Shown piece by piece: positions 3,453-50,068 of a stretch of 64,000 bases of DNA. How positions within the stretch are numbered: position 1 is the first letter of the stretch; the number at the start of each line of letters is the position of its first letter. Under the pieces are notes generated by a model. That model was not told the DNA's origin and searched no databases. It saw only the letters and a program-made list of their open reading frames with translations. This DNA comes from Halobellus sp. LT62 (lineage in GTDB: Archaea > Halobacteriota > Halobacteria > Halobacteriales > Haloferacaceae), in contig NZ_JAYEZO010000002.1 of assembly GCF_037031285.1 (NCBI RefSeq), positions 372,001 through 436,000 on the forward strand, read 5' to 3'. The translations under genes were made by a program, and so were the position numbers.

Positions 3453-3555
3453 TTCTCATCGGTCGACAGGGGCTGCACGCTCGGTTTGGAACCACTTGCC
3501 GGGACCCGACGGAGTCGGTGGCGGTGAGGGCAACGCGTCGAGAACGCCGAGCGCG

Positions 3556-6500
3556 CTATTTCTCTTCGACGACGTCTGCCTCCTCGAGGCTAATTGTCCC
3601 GGTGGGCCGGTCGCTCCCGTCGAAGATATACCGTTCGTCCTCGGTCTCGATGACGATCGCGTTCGCTCCGAATTCGCTGGTCTCGTCTCCGATCGAGACG
3701 GCTATCCCGGCACGGTCTCCCATCGTCTCACCGAGGAACTGGGCGTCGGCTCCCGCGAGGTCGGTGAGCTCCGCTTCGTCTACCGGGCCGTAGAACAGGT
3801 ACGCGGCACCCGCCTCCGTGTTCCCGATATCGCTGTCGGGGACCCCGACGAGAAGTCCGTCGAGCCCGCTTGACGTGGCCTCTAGCCCGCCCGACGAAGC
3901 GTTGTTACGGCTGACGACCCAGCCGGGGCGCTCGTCGATCGACAGTCGCGCCGAGCGATCGGGGAGGGGCTGTACCGGTTCCGCGAAGTCCTCCGGTCGG
4001 TCCTCGACGCGGAAGAGCCCCCAGAGACCGGCTTCTAACCGACGACGCATCTTCATCCCTTGGTAGATGAAGTCGCCGGTCTCGTTCCGGAGACCGCCGG
4101 CTCTCCCTTGCGGCTCGATCCGAAGCATTTTCCCCGGACTGATGGAGTTTTCGACGCCGATACGGGGCGTTTGGGGAACGCGACGGAACCGGTTCCACAG
4201 GTGGCCTGCGATGTGGATCGAGACGCCCCGTGGTCCACCAGACGCCTGACTCACCTGAAACTGCACGGGGTCGTCGAGGTAGGCGTTCAAGACGGGAGTC
4301 GCCGGATCGCCGTGGATATCCGAGCTGTAGACGAGGTGCTCCGCCGGGTTCTCATCGAACCGCCTACTGAACGGTTCGGCCCGGTTGTTGACGCCGACGT
4401 ACCCCTGGTCTTCGGCGTCGCCGATTTGGTTACACGGCGTGTTCGGATCTTGGTCGGGATCGTCGTCGTTCCTCGGAACGACGCACGATCCGTCGGGGTT
4501 GACGACGTACCGTTTGTCGCTTATCGAGAGCGAGAACTGCCGGTAATCGGACCCGTTCGGATCCTTGACCATTACGTCCGACCCGACACTGACCGGTTCG
4601 GCCGTCCGTGAATCGAGCCACGTCGATCCCTCGGGTTCGATGTACAGATTGCCGGACGCCCCGTGGTGATGGGTGCCTCGCGGATCGGCCATATCCCACA
4701 GCACGCACCCCTCTAGGTTGCGTTCGGCGTACCAGCGGTAGGTAATCGACTCGCCGGGTGCGATCGTCTGATCGTAATTGAACCCCACCGTCGCCCCGTC
4801 TGATCCGTTCACGTCGTACGTGAGCCGCTGGGGATGTAACGAAATTCGGTTCGAGCGCTCCCACGGCTTATTCGTACGCATTTCGGGATCTGCGTGTGCG
4901 TCGTCGGGCGTTTCGGGCAGCTCGTTCGTGAGGGTGACCTCGACGCAGTCGCCCGCGTTCGTGTGAATAGCGAGCGGTTCGGCCGGACGATCTCCCGACC
5001 GGATTTCCTCGACGTGCTCGTCGATCGCGTAGACGATTCCGTGGGGGTCGTGATCGCCGTAGTCGTTGAACTCGATCTCGTTCTGGAATGCGGTGACATC
5101 GTAGCTTCTGACCGGCGCGCCGTCGGGACAGGGATCGCCGGGATTCGGCGCTTTGGGTGGGGCCGCTCCGATCTGGTCGTTCCGTCGTGCGTCGTGGTCC
5201 GCCGGACGACTTCGGTCAGCGTTGTCATCGTAGCGGAGCTTCGCCTTGTGACCCAGTTCCGTCCACCGCCCGTCGAACGGGGCCGGGTGGCCCATCTCTC
5301 GAAGGTCGTCATCGCCGATACTCGGTTCGGGCGATTCGCGGTCTGGGAGCGGCTGGAGGTGATTCACTTCGCCACCCCACGAACGGAGGAGTCCCCACAT
5401 CCCATCCCAGAGGTCGTCCATAACCGCCGAGCCGTAGAGGTAATCGCGGACCGGCAGGCCGTTCGGGTTGTCTCTTCTCGCGAAGTCGGTCTCCTCTCGA
5501 GCGCGGAACGTAAACGCTTCGGAGGGACCGATGACCTGCGACGTCGAGTCGGCGGGATCGAATCCGTCGGGGTTGGGAAGGAGGCCGTGCGTCGTGAAGT
5601 TGTGCTGCTCCTCGTGGTTCCCGTTCACGAGCCGGATTCGAACCGGGTCGTCCTCGTACATCTCACAGACCGGTGTCGACGGATCGCCGTGCACGGCGGA
5701 GCTGTGAACGTACGCCGCGTCCTCGTCGTCGCGGTGGTAGTACGGGGCGTTTCGGTAATTGATCGCCATCGTTCCGGCGTTGAGCGCGTGCTGGGTGTCG
5801 GGATTGACGAACTCGTCGGTCGTCCCTCGCTCGACGAGGGGCGCGAAGTCGTGATACAACAGCGTGAACTCTCGGAAGTCCTCGCCGTTCGGGTCCTCGA
5901 TCATCGCCTGTGTCCCGCTCCGGATCTCGTCGCCGGTGTGCGGATCGAGCCAGCGCGACTCCTCCGGTTCGACGATCAAACTGGCGAACGTGCCGTGCAT
6001 TCCCTCCCCGGTAGCCGTCATATGGTCGTGGAAGAAGACGGCCCCTTCCTCGTCTGCGTACCAGCGGTAGGTCCCCTCCTCGCCGGGATCGACGCCTTGG
6101 CTGTAGTTGTAGCCGACCGCCGTCGAATCGGAGCCGAGCACGTCGTACCCGACGAAGTGAACGTGGTTGGACACCTCTCCGGCGGGCTCGCCCGGAAGCA
6201 GGGCGTCCTCGGTCAACTCGTTTTTGAACGTGATCTGTACCGCGTCCCCGACGTTCGCGCGGATGACGAGCGGTTCGGGATTTATGTCGCCGTTCCGAAC
6301 CGCCTCTGCGTCCTCTTCGAGGACGAACACGCGCCCTCGGGGGTCGTGGTCGCCGGCGTCGTTGTACACGACGTCTGCCGGCAGTGCGACGATCGTGTAC
6401 TCCCGGACCGGCGCGTCGTCGTCGACGACGGGATCGACGTACGGTGCGCCCGGAACGAGCGCGTCGAACGCCTCCTGCTCGGCCTCGTTGGGCGCTCGAT

Positions 6501-8685
6501 TCCATGGATTTCCGGGCGACATACTCGGCGCGTTCGGCTGAAGCTCGCCCTCGTCGACGAGCGTATCGAGGACTTCGATCCACCCGAGGTCGTCCGCGTC
6601 GGTCGGAATTTCCGGAGGGTTGTCCGGTAACGGCTGCAGATCGGGACGCTGCTTGTCGTGAACCCGCATAACGGCGTTCATCCCTTCCGTGTAATGCGGG
6701 AACAAGTGACAGTGAAACAGGTAGTCGCCAGCGCTCCCGTGGACGTATCCCGCGCCGACGGAGAACGCCTCCTCGAACGTCATATCCGGACGTGTCGTGC
6801 GCTCGCCGGCCCCAGCGATGAGATACTGTGGATAGGTCGCCCCCGGGCCGATCGTCTGTGAATCGATGGTGTCGGAGTCCAATCGTCCCTCGACCTCCTT
6901 CAGGCGGTGACCGTGGAGGTGGTGGACGTGATTCTCCTCGAGGTTCGCGCCGATCGGAACGAACTTGATCGGATCGCCCTTGTACGCGGGGAACGCGTTG
7001 TCCCCGAATCCGGGGTCGCCGTGGACCCACGAACTGTAGAACGCCTCGGTCGGTTGGTCCGCCAGACCGACACGCTCGCTCGTCTTCTCGGCGCGGTAGT
7101 TGATCCCGTGGGTGGTCTGAGGGACTCCCTCCACGTGGTCGACCTCCCCTTCGTTGAACGGGAAATCCCGTTCGGGAACAACGTCGCCGGGGTCGTGATA
7201 TATCGGGACGAACTCGCGGTAGTCGGGAGCGTCGGGAGCGTGGATGTCCGCTTTCGTTCCGCTTCGGAGCGTGCCGCCGGTCACCGGATCGGTCCACGTG
7301 TAATTCCGGGGCTCGACGAGTATCGCGCCGAACAGTCCTCGGGCGAGCGCATTGGTTTCCTCCGGGTTTCCCTGCGGGTCGCTGTCCCACGCGTGGGCGG
7401 TCCCGTCCGCGAAGTAGAACGCGCCTTCGTTGTCGGCGTGTATTCGGTACGACGTCGATCCCCCCGCGGGGACCGTCGTGTCCGGGTTCCGTCCGACAGC
7501 CATTCCGTCCGACGTGTTCAGGTCATACGGCAGTCCCGTCGGATGGATCGAAGCCGGGCGATCGAGATCGTTGACGAACTCGATGTTGAGTATGTCGCCG
7601 TGGTTCGCTCTGAGGACGAGCGGTTCGATCACCGAGACGTCCGCCGGCTCCTCGTAGGACCCTTCGGCCGCTCGGACGGCCTCGATGTTCTCTTCGAGGA
7701 CGTACATCGCGCCGTTGGGCTGGTGCAGTCCGAACGTGTTGTACGGGATGTCGACGTCGATCGCGTGGACGGTGAAGTTCCGAACCTGCGGTTCGCCGTC
7801 GTTGTGACGACATTGCTCGGCGTAGAACCCGAGCCTGAACGCGGCGGAGTCGGTCTGGATTCGGTTGCCGACGGTTTTCGGTACCTCCCATTCGAAACGG
7901 ATGTGCTGGGTCTCTGAGTTCGAAAAGCAGTGTCGGTCCGTCGCCCCTCGGTCGCCGTCGAGGGGGACACGGCGATCGAGCGCGTCCAGCACCTCCCTTA
8001 ACGTTCCGGAGATGATCTCTTCTCCGTCCTCGTACACCGCTCGGGCGGATATCACTTCGGGGAGTTCACCCACTCCCGTAACGTCCTCGCCTTCGGCCGC
8101 TACTTCCGCCTCAGTCTGGCCGTTCTCGTCGTTCTCGAGGAGTTCGCCCGTCAGCCAGACGAATCCGGGGTTATCGAACAGGTGGAGACTGAACGAGACG
8201 GATCCGCTATCGCCGGGTTTCACGTCGTCGAATTCGAGGACGGGTGGGCGGCCGCCGCCGTCGTCGAAAAGCTTCGAGAGGTCCGCGAACTGACCGCGGA
8301 AGGACGCCTCGACATCGGCCTGTTCGTCCCGGTCGAGTGCGTCGTAGTAGACGCCGTAACGCTCCCGTGCGATCTCATCGCGCGTTTCGATCTCGTCCTG
8401 TTCGTCATCGTCGTTTTCGTCCGGATACGCGTCGACGGGCTCTCCGTTGTAGATCTCCTGCCAGTCGACTTTCATATCGAACTCACCCGCTACGAGCGTG
8501 CTCTGCGTCGTCTCCGTATCGCTGAACATCGACCACGTCTGGCCGCTGGTGACCGCACCGATCCCGGTCGCGCCGAACGCAGCGAGGATGTGGCGTCGTG
8601 TGAGGTTTATCTCGGTCGATAGGTTCGTATTCGTCCCGCTATGCGTCTCGTCACCGCTGTCGAGATCGTCTGAATCGTGCTTCAT
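3556..8685 (-). CDS. Giant Tat-exported multicopper oxidase with TasA-like N-terminus and FG-GAP-like tail
   Basis: This 1709-residue protein is far longer than usual multicopper oxidases (about 450-650). The twin Arg is at 30-31, before a hydrophobic stretch ending near residue 48. Residues 50-300 (FSDTETTQSTLVAGEFD, DVKPGDSGSV, DNPGFVWL, CFSNSETQH, GFYAEQCRHND) follow the haloarchaeal SipW-substrate/TasA-like pattern. Three tandem cupredoxin-pair modules follow, at about 300-690, 755-1115 and 1190-1575. Module 1 ends with HVHHLHGH (586-593) and HCHLFPHYTEGM (658-669), a full set of type 1 and type 3 ligands. Module 2 starts with HVH (841-843) and HDH (886-888). The other copies have lost most ligands. 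Residues 1605-1635 (GLDGLLVGVPDSDIGN...) resemble one FG-GAP repeat. It probably oxidises a metal or organic substrate outside the cell. The substrate is unknown. No C-terminal anchor is visible. Confidence 0.85.
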   Translation of the reverse strand: MKHDSDDLDSGDETHSGTNTNLSTEINLTRRHILAAFGATGIGAVTSGQTWSMFSDTETTQSTLVAGEFDMKVDWQEIYNGEPVDAYPDENDDDEQDEIETRDEIARERYGVYYDALDRDEQADVEASFRGQFADLSKLFDDGGGRPPVLEFDDVKPGDSGSVSFSLHLFDNPGFVWLTGELLENDENGQTEAEVAAEGEDVTGVGELPEVISARAVYEDGEEIISGTLREVLDALDRRVPLDGDRGATDRHCFSNSETQHIRFEWEVPKTVGNRIQTDSAAFRLGFYAEQCRHNDGEPQVRNFTVHAIDVDIPYNTFGLHQPNGAMYVLEENIEAVRAAEGSYEEPADVSVIEPLVLRANHGDILNIEFVNDLDRPASIHPTGLPYDLNTSDGMAVGRNPDTTVPAGGSTSYRIHADNEGAFYFADGTAHAWDSDPQGNPEETNALARGLFGAILVEPRNYTWTDPVTGGTLRSGTKADIHAPDAPDYREFVPIYHDPGDVVPERDFPFNEGEVDHVEGVPQTTHGINYRAEKTSERVGLADQPTEAFYSSWVHGDPGFGDNAFPAYKGDPIKFVPIGANLEENHVHHLHGHRLKEVEGRLDSDTIDSQTIGPGATYPQYLIAGAGERTTRPDMTFEEAFSVGAGYVHGSAGDYLFHCHLFPHYTEGMNAVMRVHDKQRPDLQPLPDNPPEIPTDADDLGWIEVLDTLVDEGELQPNAPSMSPGNPWNRAPNEAEQEAFDALVPGAPYVDPVVDDDAPVREYTIVALPADVVYNDAGDHDPRGRVFVLEEDAEAVRNGDINPEPLVIRANVGDAVQITFKNELTEDALLPGEPAGEVSNHVHFVGYDVLGSDSTAVGYNYSQGVDPGEEGTYRWYADEEGAVFFHDHMTATGEGMHGTFASLIVEPEESRWLDPHTGDEIRSGTQAMIEDPNGEDFREFTLLYHDFAPLVERGTTDEFVNPDTQHALNAGTMAINYRNAPYYHRDDEDAAYVHSSAVHGDPSTPVCEMYEDDPVRIRLVNGNHEEQHNFTTHGLLPNPDGFDPADSTSQVIGPSEAFTFRAREETDFARRDNPNGLPVRDYLYGSAVMDDLWDGMWGLLRSWGGEVNHLQPLPDRESPEPSIGDDDLREMGHPAPFDGRWTELGHKAKLRYDDNADRSRPADHDARRNDQIGAAPPKAPNPGDPCPDGAPVRSYDVTAFQNEIEFNDYGDHDPHGIVYAIDEHVEEIRSGDRPAEPLAIHTNAGDCVEVTLTNELPETPDDAHADPEMRTNKPWERSNRISLHPQRLTYDVNGSDGATVGFNYDQTIAPGESITYRWYAERNLEGCVLWDMADPRGTHHHGASGNLYIEPEGSTWLDSRTAEPVSVGSDVMVKDPNGSDYRQFSLSISDKRYVVNPDGSCVVPRNDDDPDQDPNTPCNQIGDAEDQGYVGVNNRAEPFSRRFDENPAEHLVYSSDIHGDPATPVLNAYLDDPVQFQVSQASGGPRGVSIHIAGHLWNRFRRVPQTPRIGVENSISPGKMLRIEPQGRAGGLRNETGDFIYQGMKMRRRLEAGLWGLFRVEDRPEDFAEPVQPLPDRSARLSIDERPGWVVSRNNASSGGLEATSSGLDGLLVGVPDSDIGNTEAGAAYLFYGPVDEAELTDLAGADAQFLGETMGDRAGIAVSIGDETSEFGANAIVIETEDERYIFDGSDRPTGTISLEEADVVEEK

Positions 8686-9062
8686 ACTGTGTTCCCTTCG
8701 ATGTCACCGCTGCAGGCTCTCGCCCGAAACACCGTCTTCAGTCCCGCCGTCGAACGGGACGAGGCCCCCGTTCGCGCGAAGTCACCCGAGCTATCAGCGC
8801 CGTCCGAGTGGTCTACCCGGACTGAAAGCGGCTATGACCGGTTTCCGGAGGAGTCGGTATTGTTACCAGTTCCCTTCGAAACGGCAAAAAATGCTAACGA
8901 AACGATAGAAACGTAAAATCAGACGGTAACAACGTTTTAATGAGCGAATAGCTGTCGCTCTCCTCACGTCATTCGATCGATACTCAGCCCGAGCGAACAG
9001 TGCCGCGAGAGACGAGCGAGGCGTCGGACGGGAAGTGCAATCGTTACGGATCTCTCAGGGCG
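8686..9062. promoter_or_regulatory. 377-bp upstream region of the multicopper oxidase
   Basis: There is no convincing gene here. The half nearest DUF5812 (about 8855-8950) is clearly AT-richer than its surroundings and should hold the oxidase promoter. An 8-bp inverted repeat, ttgttacc at 8860-8867 and ggtaacaa at 8925-8932, brackets an AT-rich stretch containing tacgttt-like TATA candidates. It could be a regulator site, but the long spacing makes this uncertain. If transcription starts there, the mRNA has a leader of about 200 nt. Confidence 0.35.
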
Positions 9063-11601: not shown

Positions 11602-12012
11602 TCGCGGTTGCAGTTGATGGCTTACAGTCGGCACCCGCATCGGTGACGTCGTCGGAACGTCTGCCACGTTCCGGTCGTCACCGACAATCCCGTGTCGCTG
11701 TGCCGAACAACCGCAGCACGACACGGGGCTATCGTCAGATCACGGGGACGCTGGTCCCGCCCTCGTATATAAACACTCGCCGTCGTTTGAGCAGGCGACG
11801 GCGACGGGCGATCATCACTTGCCAGCGGTTCGCCGCAACTTCTTTATCCAAGTCCCACGTGTGTCAACGCAACACGAGTGCTGAGGGTACTCGTGATGGT
11901 GAGCCGTGCTTATCCGATCCGAAGTTGGCAAGGGTTAAATGGCTCCCATCCGAACCGGGCTGTAGTATCCCGTGAGAATTTCTTCCCCAACCGACACCCA
12001 CCGCACTCAGAT
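11602..12012 (+). promoter_or_regulatory. 411-bp leader/promoter region of the RNA polymerase operon
   Basis: No gene is seen. The clearest TATA box is gtatataaac at 11765-11774, which would leave a leader of about 215 nt. Weaker candidates are tctttatcc (11842-11850), gcttatcc (11909-11916) and gggttaaat (11932-11940). A 7-bp hairpin, cacgagt/actcgtg, lies between about 11873 and 11895. The region also holds the palindrome annotated at 11689-11727. Which promoter drives rpoH cannot be decided by eye. Confidence 0.5.
11689..11727. repeat. 39-bp palindrome, uninterrupted relative of the outer element at 49885-50007
   Basis: Perfect 9-bp arms cccgtgtcg/cgacacggg enclose ctgtgccgaacaaccgcagca. 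The reverse complement matches, at about 36 of 39 positions, the sequence obtained at 49885-50007 when the 81-82 bp TTTGCAA palindrome is removed from it. It lies between pgi and the strongest TATA box of the RNA polymerase leader. Confidence 0.7.
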
Positions 12013-22537: not shown

Positions 22538-22835
22538 ACCGTTCGACCGACTCTCGTCTCTACTCGGATTTCGTTTTCTGCGTCGGCAACGCAGCGACTG
22601 CAACACGGTACGACGGTTCTGTTGTAACTTCTCGTTCGGACGGACTCGGTCGTGAAACTGTCGTTCTGTAGCTGTGCGAATGTATCTCGTAGCGTTTGCA
22701 ACTGATCGCTCGTCCGATCGCACGACTGCGTGCGATCGAGTGAAGGCTTGCAAACGCTACGATCGTAGCACGGGGAGTCGTGGTACCTCGACCCTCGCAA
22801 GGGTTATCCCTCACTCAACCCTCCGTTTGGTTGTA
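22538..22835. other. 298-bp spacer with a palindromic element and the cspA promoter
   Basis: The distal part (22560-22687) has no gene and only scattered short inverted repeats. The proximal part carries the palindromic element at 22688-22761. It also has a TATA-like ggttatcc at 22802-22809, 30 nt before the cold-shock gene, consistent with a leaderless transcript. Confidence 0.5.
22688..22761. repeat. TTTGCAA nested palindrome, copy 1
   Basis: The outer arms are cgtagcgtttgcaa and ttgcaaacgctacg, with one extra base pair context on each side. The inner arms are cgatcgcacg and cgtgcgatcg around a 4-nt actg loop. It ends 75 bp before the cold-shock gene. It belongs to the family with copies at 24076, 32582 (partial), 32951 and 49903. 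Confidence 0.8.
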
Positions 22836-23042
22836 ATGGCAAACGGTAAGGTTGATTTCTTCAACGACACAGGCGGCTACGGTTTCATTTCGACTGACGA
22901 CGGCGACCTCGACGACGACGAAGACGTGTTCTTCCACATGGAAGATGTCGGCGGCGAAGACCTCACGGAAGGTACTGAGGTCGAGTTCGACATCGAGTCC
23001 TCGCCCAAGGGGCCTCGCGCGACGAACGTCGTCCGGCAGTAA
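22836..23042 (+). CDS. cspA: Cold-shock domain protein
   Basis: A 68-residue CspA-type OB-fold protein that binds single-stranded nucleic acid and acts as an RNA chaperone. It contains the RNP1 motif GYGFIS and an RNP2-like DVFFHMED, and it ends PKGPRATNVV as in the family. An acidic loop DDGDLDDDED between the motifs is a haloarchaeal feature. The start is at MANGKVDFFND. The gene has its own TATA box and a terminator-like hairpin, so it is monocistronic. Confidence 0.93.
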   Translation: MANGKVDFFNDTGGYGFISTDDGDLDDDEDVFFHMEDVGGEDLTEGTEVEFDIESSPKGPRATNVVRQ

Positions 23043-23053
23043 CACCGAGACAC

Positions 23054-23091
23054 CTGTCGCTCACAGCGACAGACGACACTCTCGATTTTTT
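23054..23091 (+). terminator. Hairpin plus T tract after cspA
   Basis: The stem ctgtcgc/gcgacag (23054-23060 and 23066-23072) is followed by a run of six T at 23086-23091. The T run alone is a plausible archaeal termination signal for the cold-shock transcript. Confidence 0.55.
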
Positions 23092-23237
23092 AGACGATTA
23101 CGCGTTCGAGCTGACGCTATCTGTACATCTGTACTGAGCGATTGATACTGTAAAATTATCAACAGCCCCCGGTTTCAACTGAAGCGGTACGACAGCGTTC
23201 GATCCGTCGACCGCAATACGATACGACAGCGACTGGT

Positions 23238-31509: not shown

Positions 31510-31581
31510 GGGCTCGTAGATCAGTGGCAGATCGCTTCCTTCGCAAGGAAGAGGCCCTGGGTTCAAATCCCAGCGAGTCCA
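31510..31581 (+). tRNA. tRNA-Ala (anticodon CGC)
   Basis: A 72-nt cloverleaf. The acceptor is gggctcg/cgagtcc (one G-U) with discriminator A at 31581. The D stem is gatc/gatc. The anticodon stem is cttcc/ggaag around ttcgcaa, giving CGC. The T arm is ctggg-ttcaaat-cccag. CCA is not encoded. It reads GCG codons. Copies of its 3' part lie about 100-155 bp downstream. Confidence 0.95.
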
Positions 31582-31590
31582 CTACTTACT

Positions 31591-31653
31591 CTCGACACCA
31601 TTCCGACGAGCAGTGACTCCGTCAGGAGTCCTGTGAGTACCGTCGGTGTCGAG
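31591..31653. repeat. Structured 63-bp stem-loop after tRNA-Ala
   Basis: The outer arms ctcgacacc (31591-31599) and ggtgtcgag (31645-31653) are perfectly complementary. An inner stem gactcc-gtca-ggagtc occupies 31615-31630. It may be a tRNA transcript terminator or processing structure, or another dispersed palindrome. Confidence 0.5.
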
Positions 31654-31671
31654 TGTAATCGTGCCTGTTTG

Positions 31672-31736
31672 AGCTGGGATTTGAGCAGCGAGCAACGCGA
31701 AGCGTTGCGAGTGAGTTCAACATCCCAGCGAGTCCA
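31672..31736 (+). repeat. Direct and inverted copies of the tRNA-Ala 3' region (att-like)
   Basis: gttcaacatcccagcgagtcca at 31715-31736 repeats the tRNA T arm and 3' acceptor (31561-31581) with one inserted C. gctgggatttga at 31672-31683 is the same region inverted. Between them is a perfect hairpin gcaacgc-gaa-gcgttgc (31692-31708). Integrases commonly use tRNA 3' ends and leave such duplications. No integrase gene is visible in this window. Confidence 0.6.
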
Positions 31737-32113
31737 TCTAACTTTCCCGTCATTTCGAGTTCTTAGATATTCCCGATTCTTAGCCGCTGCACGCGGTATT
31801 TGCAGAAGAGTATCACCTGTAAAAAAACACTGTTTCTAAATGAATTACTAACGATCGGACATTCACGTCACCGCTGTACCCTGATTCGATGACGCCGCGC
31901 GGTACTACTGTCGGATGCGCGGCGGCGGCATCGCCGGCGGGGAATTCTCGACCGAAGTCAGTCACCAGACGAAAGAACGCCCGATGTCCTTCGAATCCAA
32001 AGGAGCCCGCGAGGTGCGAAAACGTGAGTTCGTAATTCGAGAAGCCGATCTCGGCATCGACTACTCACTGGTACAACTACCGATTTGTCTCTCCCGGTGA
32101 ATCCGCGACGCTC

Positions 32114-32278
32114 TCACACCGTTTTCCACGCGCCTCTGATGTCTGTCGGCGACATCTGGGTGTCGTGCGTCTCCCGTGCGTGTTCTTGGACGAATTCGAT
32201 GAGCTGGTTCTCGTCCTCGGATCGAATCATAAAGTCGCAGTCGTATCCTGCTTCTCGACAGGAGATTTCTTTGGCCAT
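32114..32278 (-). CDS. DUF1059 family small protein
   Basis: A 54-residue protein that I translate from the minus strand. It begins MAKEISCREAGYDCDFMIR and continues with EDENQLIEFVQEHARETHD, ending IRGAWKTV. This is the typical whole-length DUF1059 pattern of haloarchaea (two Cys in CREAGYDC, HARETHD). The function is unknown and it is a small soluble protein. It is easily missed because it is under 60 codons and other frames are open across it. It lies in the gene-poor scar after tRNA-Ala. A weak AT-rich promoter may lie at about 32311-32322. Confidence 0.82.
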   Translation of the reverse strand: MAKEISCREAGYDCDFMIRSEDENQLIEFVQEHARETHDTQMSPTDIRGAWKTV

Positions 32279-32581
32279 CGGTTTCGGACCTCCGTGCGGA
32301 GGGATGGGCGAACGCTATTTTGTTATTCACCGAGATGTCCACAATCCGGGAAGCGGGACGTTCGAACGGTGATCCTATCGATCGGTGTGAGTCGGAATTC
32401 TCTCGGGCTACGTGGGCTGTGTCCCTGACTCCTTGCATCTCGAATTCTCGCATAATCGGCGAGGACGCCACCGCGCGTAATTGCGGCTTATCTCTCGGCT
32501 GAGGCGCATAGCGCCGTCCTAGTACCGAATAAGACTGCCTTTCTGGGTGGTTGCACCGCTGCGTGAGAACTGCCGATATCA

Positions 32582-32632
32582 CAGTTACAACTGATTGCCC
32601 GTCCGATCGCACGCTTGGCGTGCGATCGAGAG
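32582..32632. repeat. TTTGCAA nested palindrome, partial copy
   Basis: Only one outer arm (cagttacaactgattgcccg) and the inner hairpin (ccgatcgcacg-cttgg-cgtgcgatcg) are present. The second outer arm with ttgcaaacgctac is missing. It lies directly beside the broken 3' end of the membrane-protein gene at 32640-32883. Confidence 0.65.
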
Positions 32633-32639
32633 CGGCACG

Positions 32640-32883
32640 GATAATTCTCTGTTAACCGACATTGGTAGAGCCCGGTCGCGAGGAGCGGATAAATCGCGAG
32701 GCTGTACGTGAAGGGGTTCACCTCCGACGTGAGCGGCCAGCCGACGTGGTTACCGCGAATGACGTGGCCGATGTGATGGGCCGCCCCCAGCGCCGTCGGC
32801 ATCACGGTGAGCGCGAGGAACACCTCCGTCAGACTGTCGTCGACTGTCGGCAGTTCGTCCGAGAATCGATCTCTGATCGCCAT
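32640..32883 (-). pseudogene. Truncated small membrane-protein gene
   Basis: The frame from ATG at 32883 gives MAIRDRFSDELPTVDDSL, then hydrophobic segments with LALTVMPTALGAAHHIGHVI and NPFTYSLAIYPLLATGLYQC. These look like a real two-or-more-helix membrane protein. From about residue 76 the frame enters Arg/Cys-rich sequence that belongs to the partial palindromic element and has no protein character. The frame formally stays open to 32488. I interpret this as loss of the C-terminal end with the element at the break. I cannot name the family. Confidence 0.5.
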
Positions 32884-33208
32884 AGTCGAGCGTCGTTCTC
32901 AACTGGGATCAGATTTTGACCCATATGTTGGGTCGGTGAACTGATGACGACTATAGTAGCGTTTGCAAGTCTTCACTCACTCGACCGCACGACAGCGTGC
33001 GGTCGGATGAGTAATCAGTTGCAAACGCTACTATAGCTCCCCCGGATAGCATAATCGCATCCGACTGATCCGATTACGAATCTCTCAAAACACCTAGCCC
33101 CATCGCTGTTTATCCTCGATAGTAGCACGTCAAAGATCGATATACAACGCCATTTTTCCACCCGAATACTTATCATATGTGGAACTATCTCCTAAATTAG
33201 ACGTCACA
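32884..33208. other. 325-bp spacer with palindromic element copy 3
   Basis: It contains the full palindrome at 32951-33036, then AT-rich sequence. A TATA-like acttatcat at 33168-33176 lies 37 nt before the start of the Tat-signal gene at 33209. No gene is seen. Confidence 0.45.
32951..33036. repeat. TTTGCAA nested palindrome, copy 3 (86 bp, perfect 18-bp ends)
   Basis: The outer arms ctatagtagcgtttgcaa and ttgcaaacgctactatag are exactly complementary over 18 bp. Inside, the inner hairpin is ccgcac-gacagc-gtgcgg. The best-preserved outer arms of the family are in this copy. Confidence 0.85.
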
Positions 33209-49784: not shown

Positions 49785-49884
49785 ACGCGTGGCTCGGCCG
49801 CTCGCGCACAAACGCTTTCGGTCTTCGATTCGGCGAGGGTTTATATGGGACAACGCGGCCAGATGTCCCGTGACGTAGAAACGG

Positions 49885-50007
49885 CCCCGCGTCGTGCTGC
49901 GGCTCGCCGCGTTTGCAACTGTGTTGCCATCCGATCGCACGTCAGCGTACGATCGATGGCCGCTGACTTGCAAACGCGGCGAGGTTGTTCGGCACAGCGG
50001 CGCGGGG
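49885..50007. repeat. Outer palindrome split by an inserted TTTGCAA palindrome
   Basis: The left remnant is at 49885-49902 (ccccgcgtcgtgctgcgg) and the right remnant at 49984-50007 (gttgttcggcacagcggc...). Joined, they reproduce, as reverse complement, the 39-bp palindrome at 11689-11727 with about three mismatches. The 81-bp element at 49903-49983 lies exactly between them. Confidence 0.75.
49903..49983. repeat. TTTGCAA nested palindrome, copy 5 (inserted copy)
   Basis: The outer arms are ctcgccgcgtttgcaa and ttgcaaacgcggcgag. The inner hairpin is ccgatcgcacg-tcag-cgtacgatcg. The terminal bases (ctcgccg) differ from the gtagcg ends of the other copies and match across the two arms of this copy. 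Confidence 0.85.
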
Positions 50008-50068
50008 ACGGGTCGGAAACGGCGACGGCCCGACCGCGCGTGCCGACTGTTCGCCATCGCTGTCGCAA

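Follow-up and report, generated by a model that had tools for sequence, protein, structure and literature searches.

A short palindromic repeat interrupts a member of a predicted pseudoknot RNA gene family in Halobellus

In Haloquadratum walsbyi, SMR-A repeats (about 110 bp, with inverted repeats, up to 54 copies) insert inside the palindromes of PATEs and IS605-type elements, and their mobilisation has been called enigmatic (PMC3119063). The nested insertion that we describe here in Halobellus has its precedent in these repeats. The inserted (inner) element resembles SMR-A in being short and non-coding, in its inverted ends, in its tens of copies and in its insertion inside palindromes (PMC3119063). 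Unlike SMR-A, however, it is about 84 bp rather than 110 bp long, most of its copies lie outside the family of the interrupted (outer) element, and the palindrome interrupted here is predicted to belong to a structured RNA gene and not to a transposon end (PMC3119063). The preference of SMR-A for PATE or IS605 palindromes was not found here; the outer hairpin is probably not an IS605 end. Further, the inner element is a dispersed extragenic palindrome like those of REP/RAYT systems and the GTAG-tagged palindromes, and has GTAG at the foot of its hairpin, but it is longer than these and palindromic through both ends (PMC3733652).

Two other described systems bear on the outer element. Bacterial two-codon minigenes consist of a start codon, one sense codon and a stop, with codon 2 not fixed, as is the case here. 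They are located in the leaders of mRNAs that have a Shine-Dalgarno sequence, and their target is a gene further downstream, whereas the outer element would be a stand-alone pseudoknot RNA that opens, as a predicted leaderless transcript, with its start-codon-stop (PMC8708949). In Haloferax volcanii, sRNAs bind ribosomes and yield no detectable product (PMC12482152). These sRNAs are haloarchaeal, as is the element studied here, and with the minigenes they come closest to its proposed function; the paper describes no start-stop or pseudoknot (PMC12482152).

The window (the whole stretch of DNA that was analysed, 64,000 nt) corresponds to C2:372001-436000 of a 3.23-Mb Halobellus genome. An earlier note on this DNA had described a palindrome inserted inside another palindrome at 49885-50007. 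When the halves 49886-49902 and 49985-50006 were joined, 36 of 39 positions were indeed equal to the reverse complement of 11689-11727; the 81-bp TTTGCAA palindrome (49903-49983) sits between the halves, and one extra G is present at 49984. A genome-wide search recovered composites as well as inner-only and outer-only copies, which excluded a chance pairing of the two. The hairpin of the 39-bp outer palindrome was confirmed, but conservation proved to be wider than the note had described and spans the region between a TATA box at 49840 and a second box, which ends near 50055. The features of the window are as follows.

49840-49846, plus strand: TATA box TTTATAT; its first T is 30 nt ahead of the RTG, a distance shared by 103 of the 123 copies measured.
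49870-49878, plus strand: start-codon-stop GTG ACG TAG and predicted RNA 5′ end; 131 of 133 copies, and 40 of 40 other-family sequences, have a stop as codon 3.
49886-49895, plus strand: 5′ strand of stem P1; covariation in alignments A2 and A3.
49899-49902, plus strand: GCGG, 5′ strand of P2b, with the insertion directly after it; paired in 98.8% of the cells of A3.
49903-49983, no strand: inserted TTTGCAA palindrome, 81 bp, with ends CTCGCC...GGCGAG; absent from the orthologous site of seven relatives.
49989-49995, plus strand: TCGGCAC, 5′ strand of P2a; covaries with box B.
49997-50006, plus strand: 3′ strand of stem P1; covariation.
50040-50055, plus strand: box B, GTGCCGACTGTTCGCC, with the 3′ strand of P2a (50040-50046) and the 3′ strand of P2b (50051-50054); pairs with the loop.
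11620-11773, minus strand: uninterrupted paralogue of the predicted RNA gene; model match with E 3.8e-18; orthologues in at least four relatives.
Parts of this paralogue, minus strand: TATA box from 11773, GTGATCTGA at 11743-11735, hairpin at 11727-11689, box B at 11635-11620.
22692-22757, plus strand: inner palindrome, solo copy.
32959-33028, minus strand: inner palindrome, solo copy with TATAGTA...TACTATA ends.
32585-32636, plus strand: inner palindrome, partial copy; 75% identity over 52 bp.

We compared the composite site with its counterparts in related species, which included Halobellus rufus (G009), H. captivus (G001), H. rarus (G006) and H. salinus (G010). Alignment of the intergenic region between the same two neighbour genes revealed an uninterrupted outer element at the position of the composite in seven of them (G009, G001, G006, G005, G004, G007 and G002). 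The window reads GCTGCGG[CTCGCC...GGCGAG]GTTGTTCGGCAC, and H. captivus reads TCCGCGGTTGTTCGGCAC at the same place. There was no recognisable element at the orthologous intergenic site in G003, G008, G010 and G012, and the R1 model, run on the named loci, returned convincing orthologues of the window site in Halobellus only. We concluded that the composite site is one half of an occupied/empty-site pair, such that the core inference of the earlier note was correct and the empty site that it had suggested looking for exists in related species. Its choice of the empty counterpart was not correct: the copy at 11689 is a paralogue, one of about 40, with orthologues of its own, and was rejected in this role. 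The 31-bp core of the 11689 copy (three mismatches or fewer) matched only itself within the window, with 0.00 matches expected by chance.

The genome contains four composites: that of the window (C2:421885) and three further full-length ones (C1:539145, C1:66162 and C1:1448343), which are 82-83% identical to it. Uninterrupted orthologues were likewise found for C1:539145 (with L251), C1:66162 (with L110) and C1:1448343 (with L123 and L113). Given four composite sites that are empty in relatives, and copies dispersed elsewhere, the proposal that the TTTGCAA palindrome is mobile was borne out. All four composites retain the TATA box, the start-stop, P1, P2a and box B. A pattern search for more interrupted outer elements returned ordinary copies, and the promoter that they share was seen in this way.

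The three composites of C1 have GCGGT[insert]GYTCGG in the loop, against GCGGTTGYTCGG in the orthologue, and the Y base, four nucleotides past the insert, is the base of the own-locus orthologue in each of the three. Junctions vary by one or two bases among the composites, with the extra G at the window site and one T missing elsewhere, and yield no uniform target duplication; the ends of solo inner copies are compatible with TA or with none as target duplication. It is possible, rather than probable, that a single insertion gave rise to one composite, from which gene conversion carried the insert to the three other outer genes. About 40 homologues of these genes could serve as partners, the four inserts share an end variant seen nowhere else in the genus, and they tend to group in a tree of the inner copies that is weak and built on few sites. 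Against such copying, the conversion tracts would be very short, the junction at the window differs, and a separate composite in G008 (C3:9382) has canonical-like ends at the same spot. Further, the agreement of the Y base with the orthologue of each locus favours separate insertions over the copying of one composite.

Inner-only copies number at least about 45 in this genome and over 40 in one relative, and the family is present in 12 of 17 genomes of the genus. Seven of the twenty inner copies sampled in G008 were identical, which suggests recent spread. Across 61 collected copies, the element is about 84 bp long and palindromic, usually with the ends TATAGTA...TACTATA (end sequence, TATAGTAGCGTTTGCAA); it has terminal inverted repeats and is too short to code. 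The ends in the four composites of this genome are CTCRCC...GGYGAG, unlike the usual TATAGTA ends, and within the genus the CTCRCC variant was found on both arms (0-1 mismatch) only there. With this difference between the ends, no direct donor of the composite inserts was recognised. Four of about 49 copies in the genome lie inside an outer hairpin, and 2 of 24 outer elements have an inner copy no more than 300 bp away (p about 0.014). When unpaired inner ends were examined in G000 and G008 for an autonomous parent, none were paired at kilobase distance around a gene.

The two arms of an inner copy often share the same change, for example in L011:1217-1286 and L032:1148-1217 (GCATTTGCAA with TTGCAAATGC; GCGTGTGCAA with TTGCACACGC). 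These matching changes suggest arm-to-arm correction or selection for the hairpin. Length variants were also observed in G008, one of about 30 bp without the middle (C1:837577-837606) and one of about 158 bp (C1:689076-689233).

The solo inner copy L134 is absent from H. rufus, where the boundary is not clean. No clean empty sites were found for the solo copies of the window, and the regions 22571-23235 and 31594-33161 do not align to relatives. The former holds a segment of roughly 570 bp, with a cold-shock-like short ORF and a solo inner palindrome, that is absent from four relatives. The latter, just downstream of tRNA-Ala(CGC) (31510-31582), contains two inner-palindrome copies and is replaced by unrelated sequence in relatives; it is likely an integration hot spot. 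Elsewhere in the window, a region of about 5.6 kb (3459-9055) is absent from the syntenic position in G009, G006, G005 and G004 and is probably an integrated element.

As the outer arms are intact and the insert is itself a hairpin atop the stem, the inner part could also be read not as an insertion but as the loop of the outer hairpin, which would then vary or have expanded. The earlier note had named many outer copies with differing loops of similar length as the contrary outcome, and this was not seen: across 118 distinct outer copies the loop is short and hardly varies, and intermediates do not occur. Together with the solo inner copies and the empty orthologous sites, this makes the variable-loop reading extremely improbable, and we rejected it.

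To return to the outer element, an alignment of its copies with wide flanks displayed a TATA box, followed by a CGCGGCCAG-like stretch and by GTG-NNN-TGA. A short spacer leads from there to the hairpin, and a variable region of about 5-113 nt separates the hairpin from the GTGCCGACTGTTCGCC box. Stem P1 of the hairpin has 10 bp, and box B was located 3′ of the hairpin by one regular expression in 109 of 118 copies. The CGCGGCCAG-like stretch (for example, at 49855-49861 in the window), which lies between the TATA box and the start, is common to nearly all copies and may be an operator or promoter-proximal element of the whole RNA family.

The third codon after the GTG is a stop in all but two of the 133 copies (TGA 124, TAA 4, TAG 3), and in one of the two exceptions TGA comes immediately after. 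In the set of 40 sequences from outside the family, the start is GTG in 33, ATG in 6 and GTA in 1, and the stop is TGA in 39 and TAA in 1; codon 2 is free. At the composite locus and its orthologues, three genomes have TAG as the stop and the rest have TGA. Such exchanges of stop and start are what one would expect where a start-codon-stop is maintained, and we take the unit to be one probably kept by selection, although plain sequence conservation could also produce the pattern. Initiation in Haloferax is mainly leaderless, and leaderless transcripts can have GUG starts (PMC4983044), which makes a leaderless two-codon ORF plausible.

TCGGCAC in the loop of the outer hairpin is the complement of GTGCCGA in box B, and the two strands of this helix (P2a) vary together. 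Some copies combine CCGGCAC with GTGCCGG, and one combines CGACAC with GTGTCGA; other genera combine GCGGCAC with GTGCCGC, ACGGCAC with GTGCCGT, and GCGGAAC with GTTCCGC. In an alignment of 36 sequences, drawn from Halobellus and from further genera of its family, 95.6% of cells held standard pairs, double-sided changes occurred in 10 pairs compared with 5.8 in shuffles, and the covariation score was 0.385 compared with 0.134 (reached in 0 of 500 shuffles). Shuffling ignores kinship; the relatedness of the sequences was accounted for by sliding the structure along the same 36 sequences, which lowered pairing to 34-49%. An independent set of 40 sequences from other families, gathered with a model whose structure held stem P1 only, was paired in 98.0% of cells (score 0.451 compared with 0.154; 0 of 500 shuffles). 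In this set, P2b, a helix of 4 bp (GCGR with YCGC) that adjoins P2a, was paired in 98.8% of cells, and its closing pair was G-U in 32 of the 40 sequences. The G-U pair forms only on the strand of the TATA box, which places the H-type pseudoknot RNA on that strand. Energy folding of the composite, by a method that cannot model pseudoknots, does not return the pseudoknot and prefers another pairing. On the strength of the covariation, we identify the outer element as a predicted structured RNA gene with an H-type pseudoknot (P1, P2a and P2b). It is this, and not the second mobile palindrome of the earlier note, that the hairpin would belong to.

The surroundings of the element were also considered. 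At 26 of 30 loci from other genera, a convergent gene lies just downstream by a crude ORF call, which indicates that the element is usually a stand-alone unit and not a leader; in Halobellus the orientation of the neighbours is mixed. Since the 3′ end is usually 17-80 nt from the stop codon of the convergent gene in other genera, the outer element could act as a DNA or terminator-like hairpin for this neighbour and not as an independent RNA. We regard this as unlikely, because the G-U pairing on one strand only, the TATA box at fixed distance and the conserved start-stop point to a transcript from the opposite strand, and because the neighbours in Halobellus do not keep one orientation. Another reading takes the outer palindrome as one of those that lie near the ends of IS605-type elements and PATEs, attacked by an SMR-A-like repeat as in Haloquadratum. 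The inner element does fit SMR-A in size, copy number and placement (PMC3119063). A positioned TATA box, RTG-NNN-stop and a long-range helix covarying across families would however be unexpected of a transposon end, and the outer element is found at orthologous loci across species, usually alone beside a convergent gene end; we consider this reading improbable.

At least about 38 intact outer elements were found in this genome, and the 12 Halobellus genomes with the element have at least 14-55 copies each among the matches listed; most other genera have fewer. Flanks were clearly alike in related species for about ten of 18 copies sampled from this genome, so many copies appear to have been inherited in place. 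With the R1 model, 94 of the family's 171 genomes had a match. The R2 model detected the element in 207 of 392 genomes sampled across the order, and in 49 of the 95 genera covered. Of 295 genomes sampled across the phylum, 27 matched, and all 27 belong to the order. Haloferax is included (G046, apparently H. marinum); for this genus (g9), the matches listed amount to one or two copies per genome. No Rfam family matched at gathering score, no match was found in plasmid and viral collections, and the open-access literature surveyed held no description of the RNA. The RNA family thus appears to be undescribed. Five genomes of the same genus (G011, G013, G014, G015 and G016) are without the inner family, the outer family and the orthologous site; either they lost all three, or the genus comprises more than one lineage.

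We therefore hold, with high confidence, that a mobile non-coding palindromic repeat has inserted in the apical internal loop of a small structured RNA gene. The palindrome, of the short-mobile-repeat or MITE type, lies between the P2b and P2a strands; it was presumably mobilised by an enzyme acting in trans and is probably tolerated because the loop is permissive. The insert leaves the start, the stop, P1 and P2 untouched and is expected to add a long side hairpin. The predicted RNA has its 5′ end at the GTG that follows the TATA box by 30 nt and carries the two-codon ORF RTG-NNN-stop; its P1 loop would pair with the 3′ box to form P2a and P2b. As to function, our best guess, offered tentatively, is that the RNA engages a ribosome at its 5′ end against the pseudoknot. 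More broadly, and just as tentatively, these genes could form an order-wide class of leaderless RNAs, with a start-codon-stop at the 5′ end and, only a few nucleotides past the stop, a pseudoknot, that capture and hold a ribosome as a trap, sensor or regulator. This class would have been amplified to about 40 genes per Halobellus genome, with the loop as a harmless landing site for the mobile palindrome.

The four natural occupied/empty pairs provide material for the study of enigmatic short mobile repeats. Further, a strongly covarying predicted pseudoknot RNA with no Rfam match is present in about half of the haloarchaeal genomes sampled, and its carriage by Haloferax means that the RNA-seq, ribosome profiling and genetics existing there could test it directly. 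If the two-codon ORF is used, the RNA would be a natural non-coding RNA that engages ribosomes by leaderless initiation, which would bear on the unexplained sRNAs of Haloferax volcanii.
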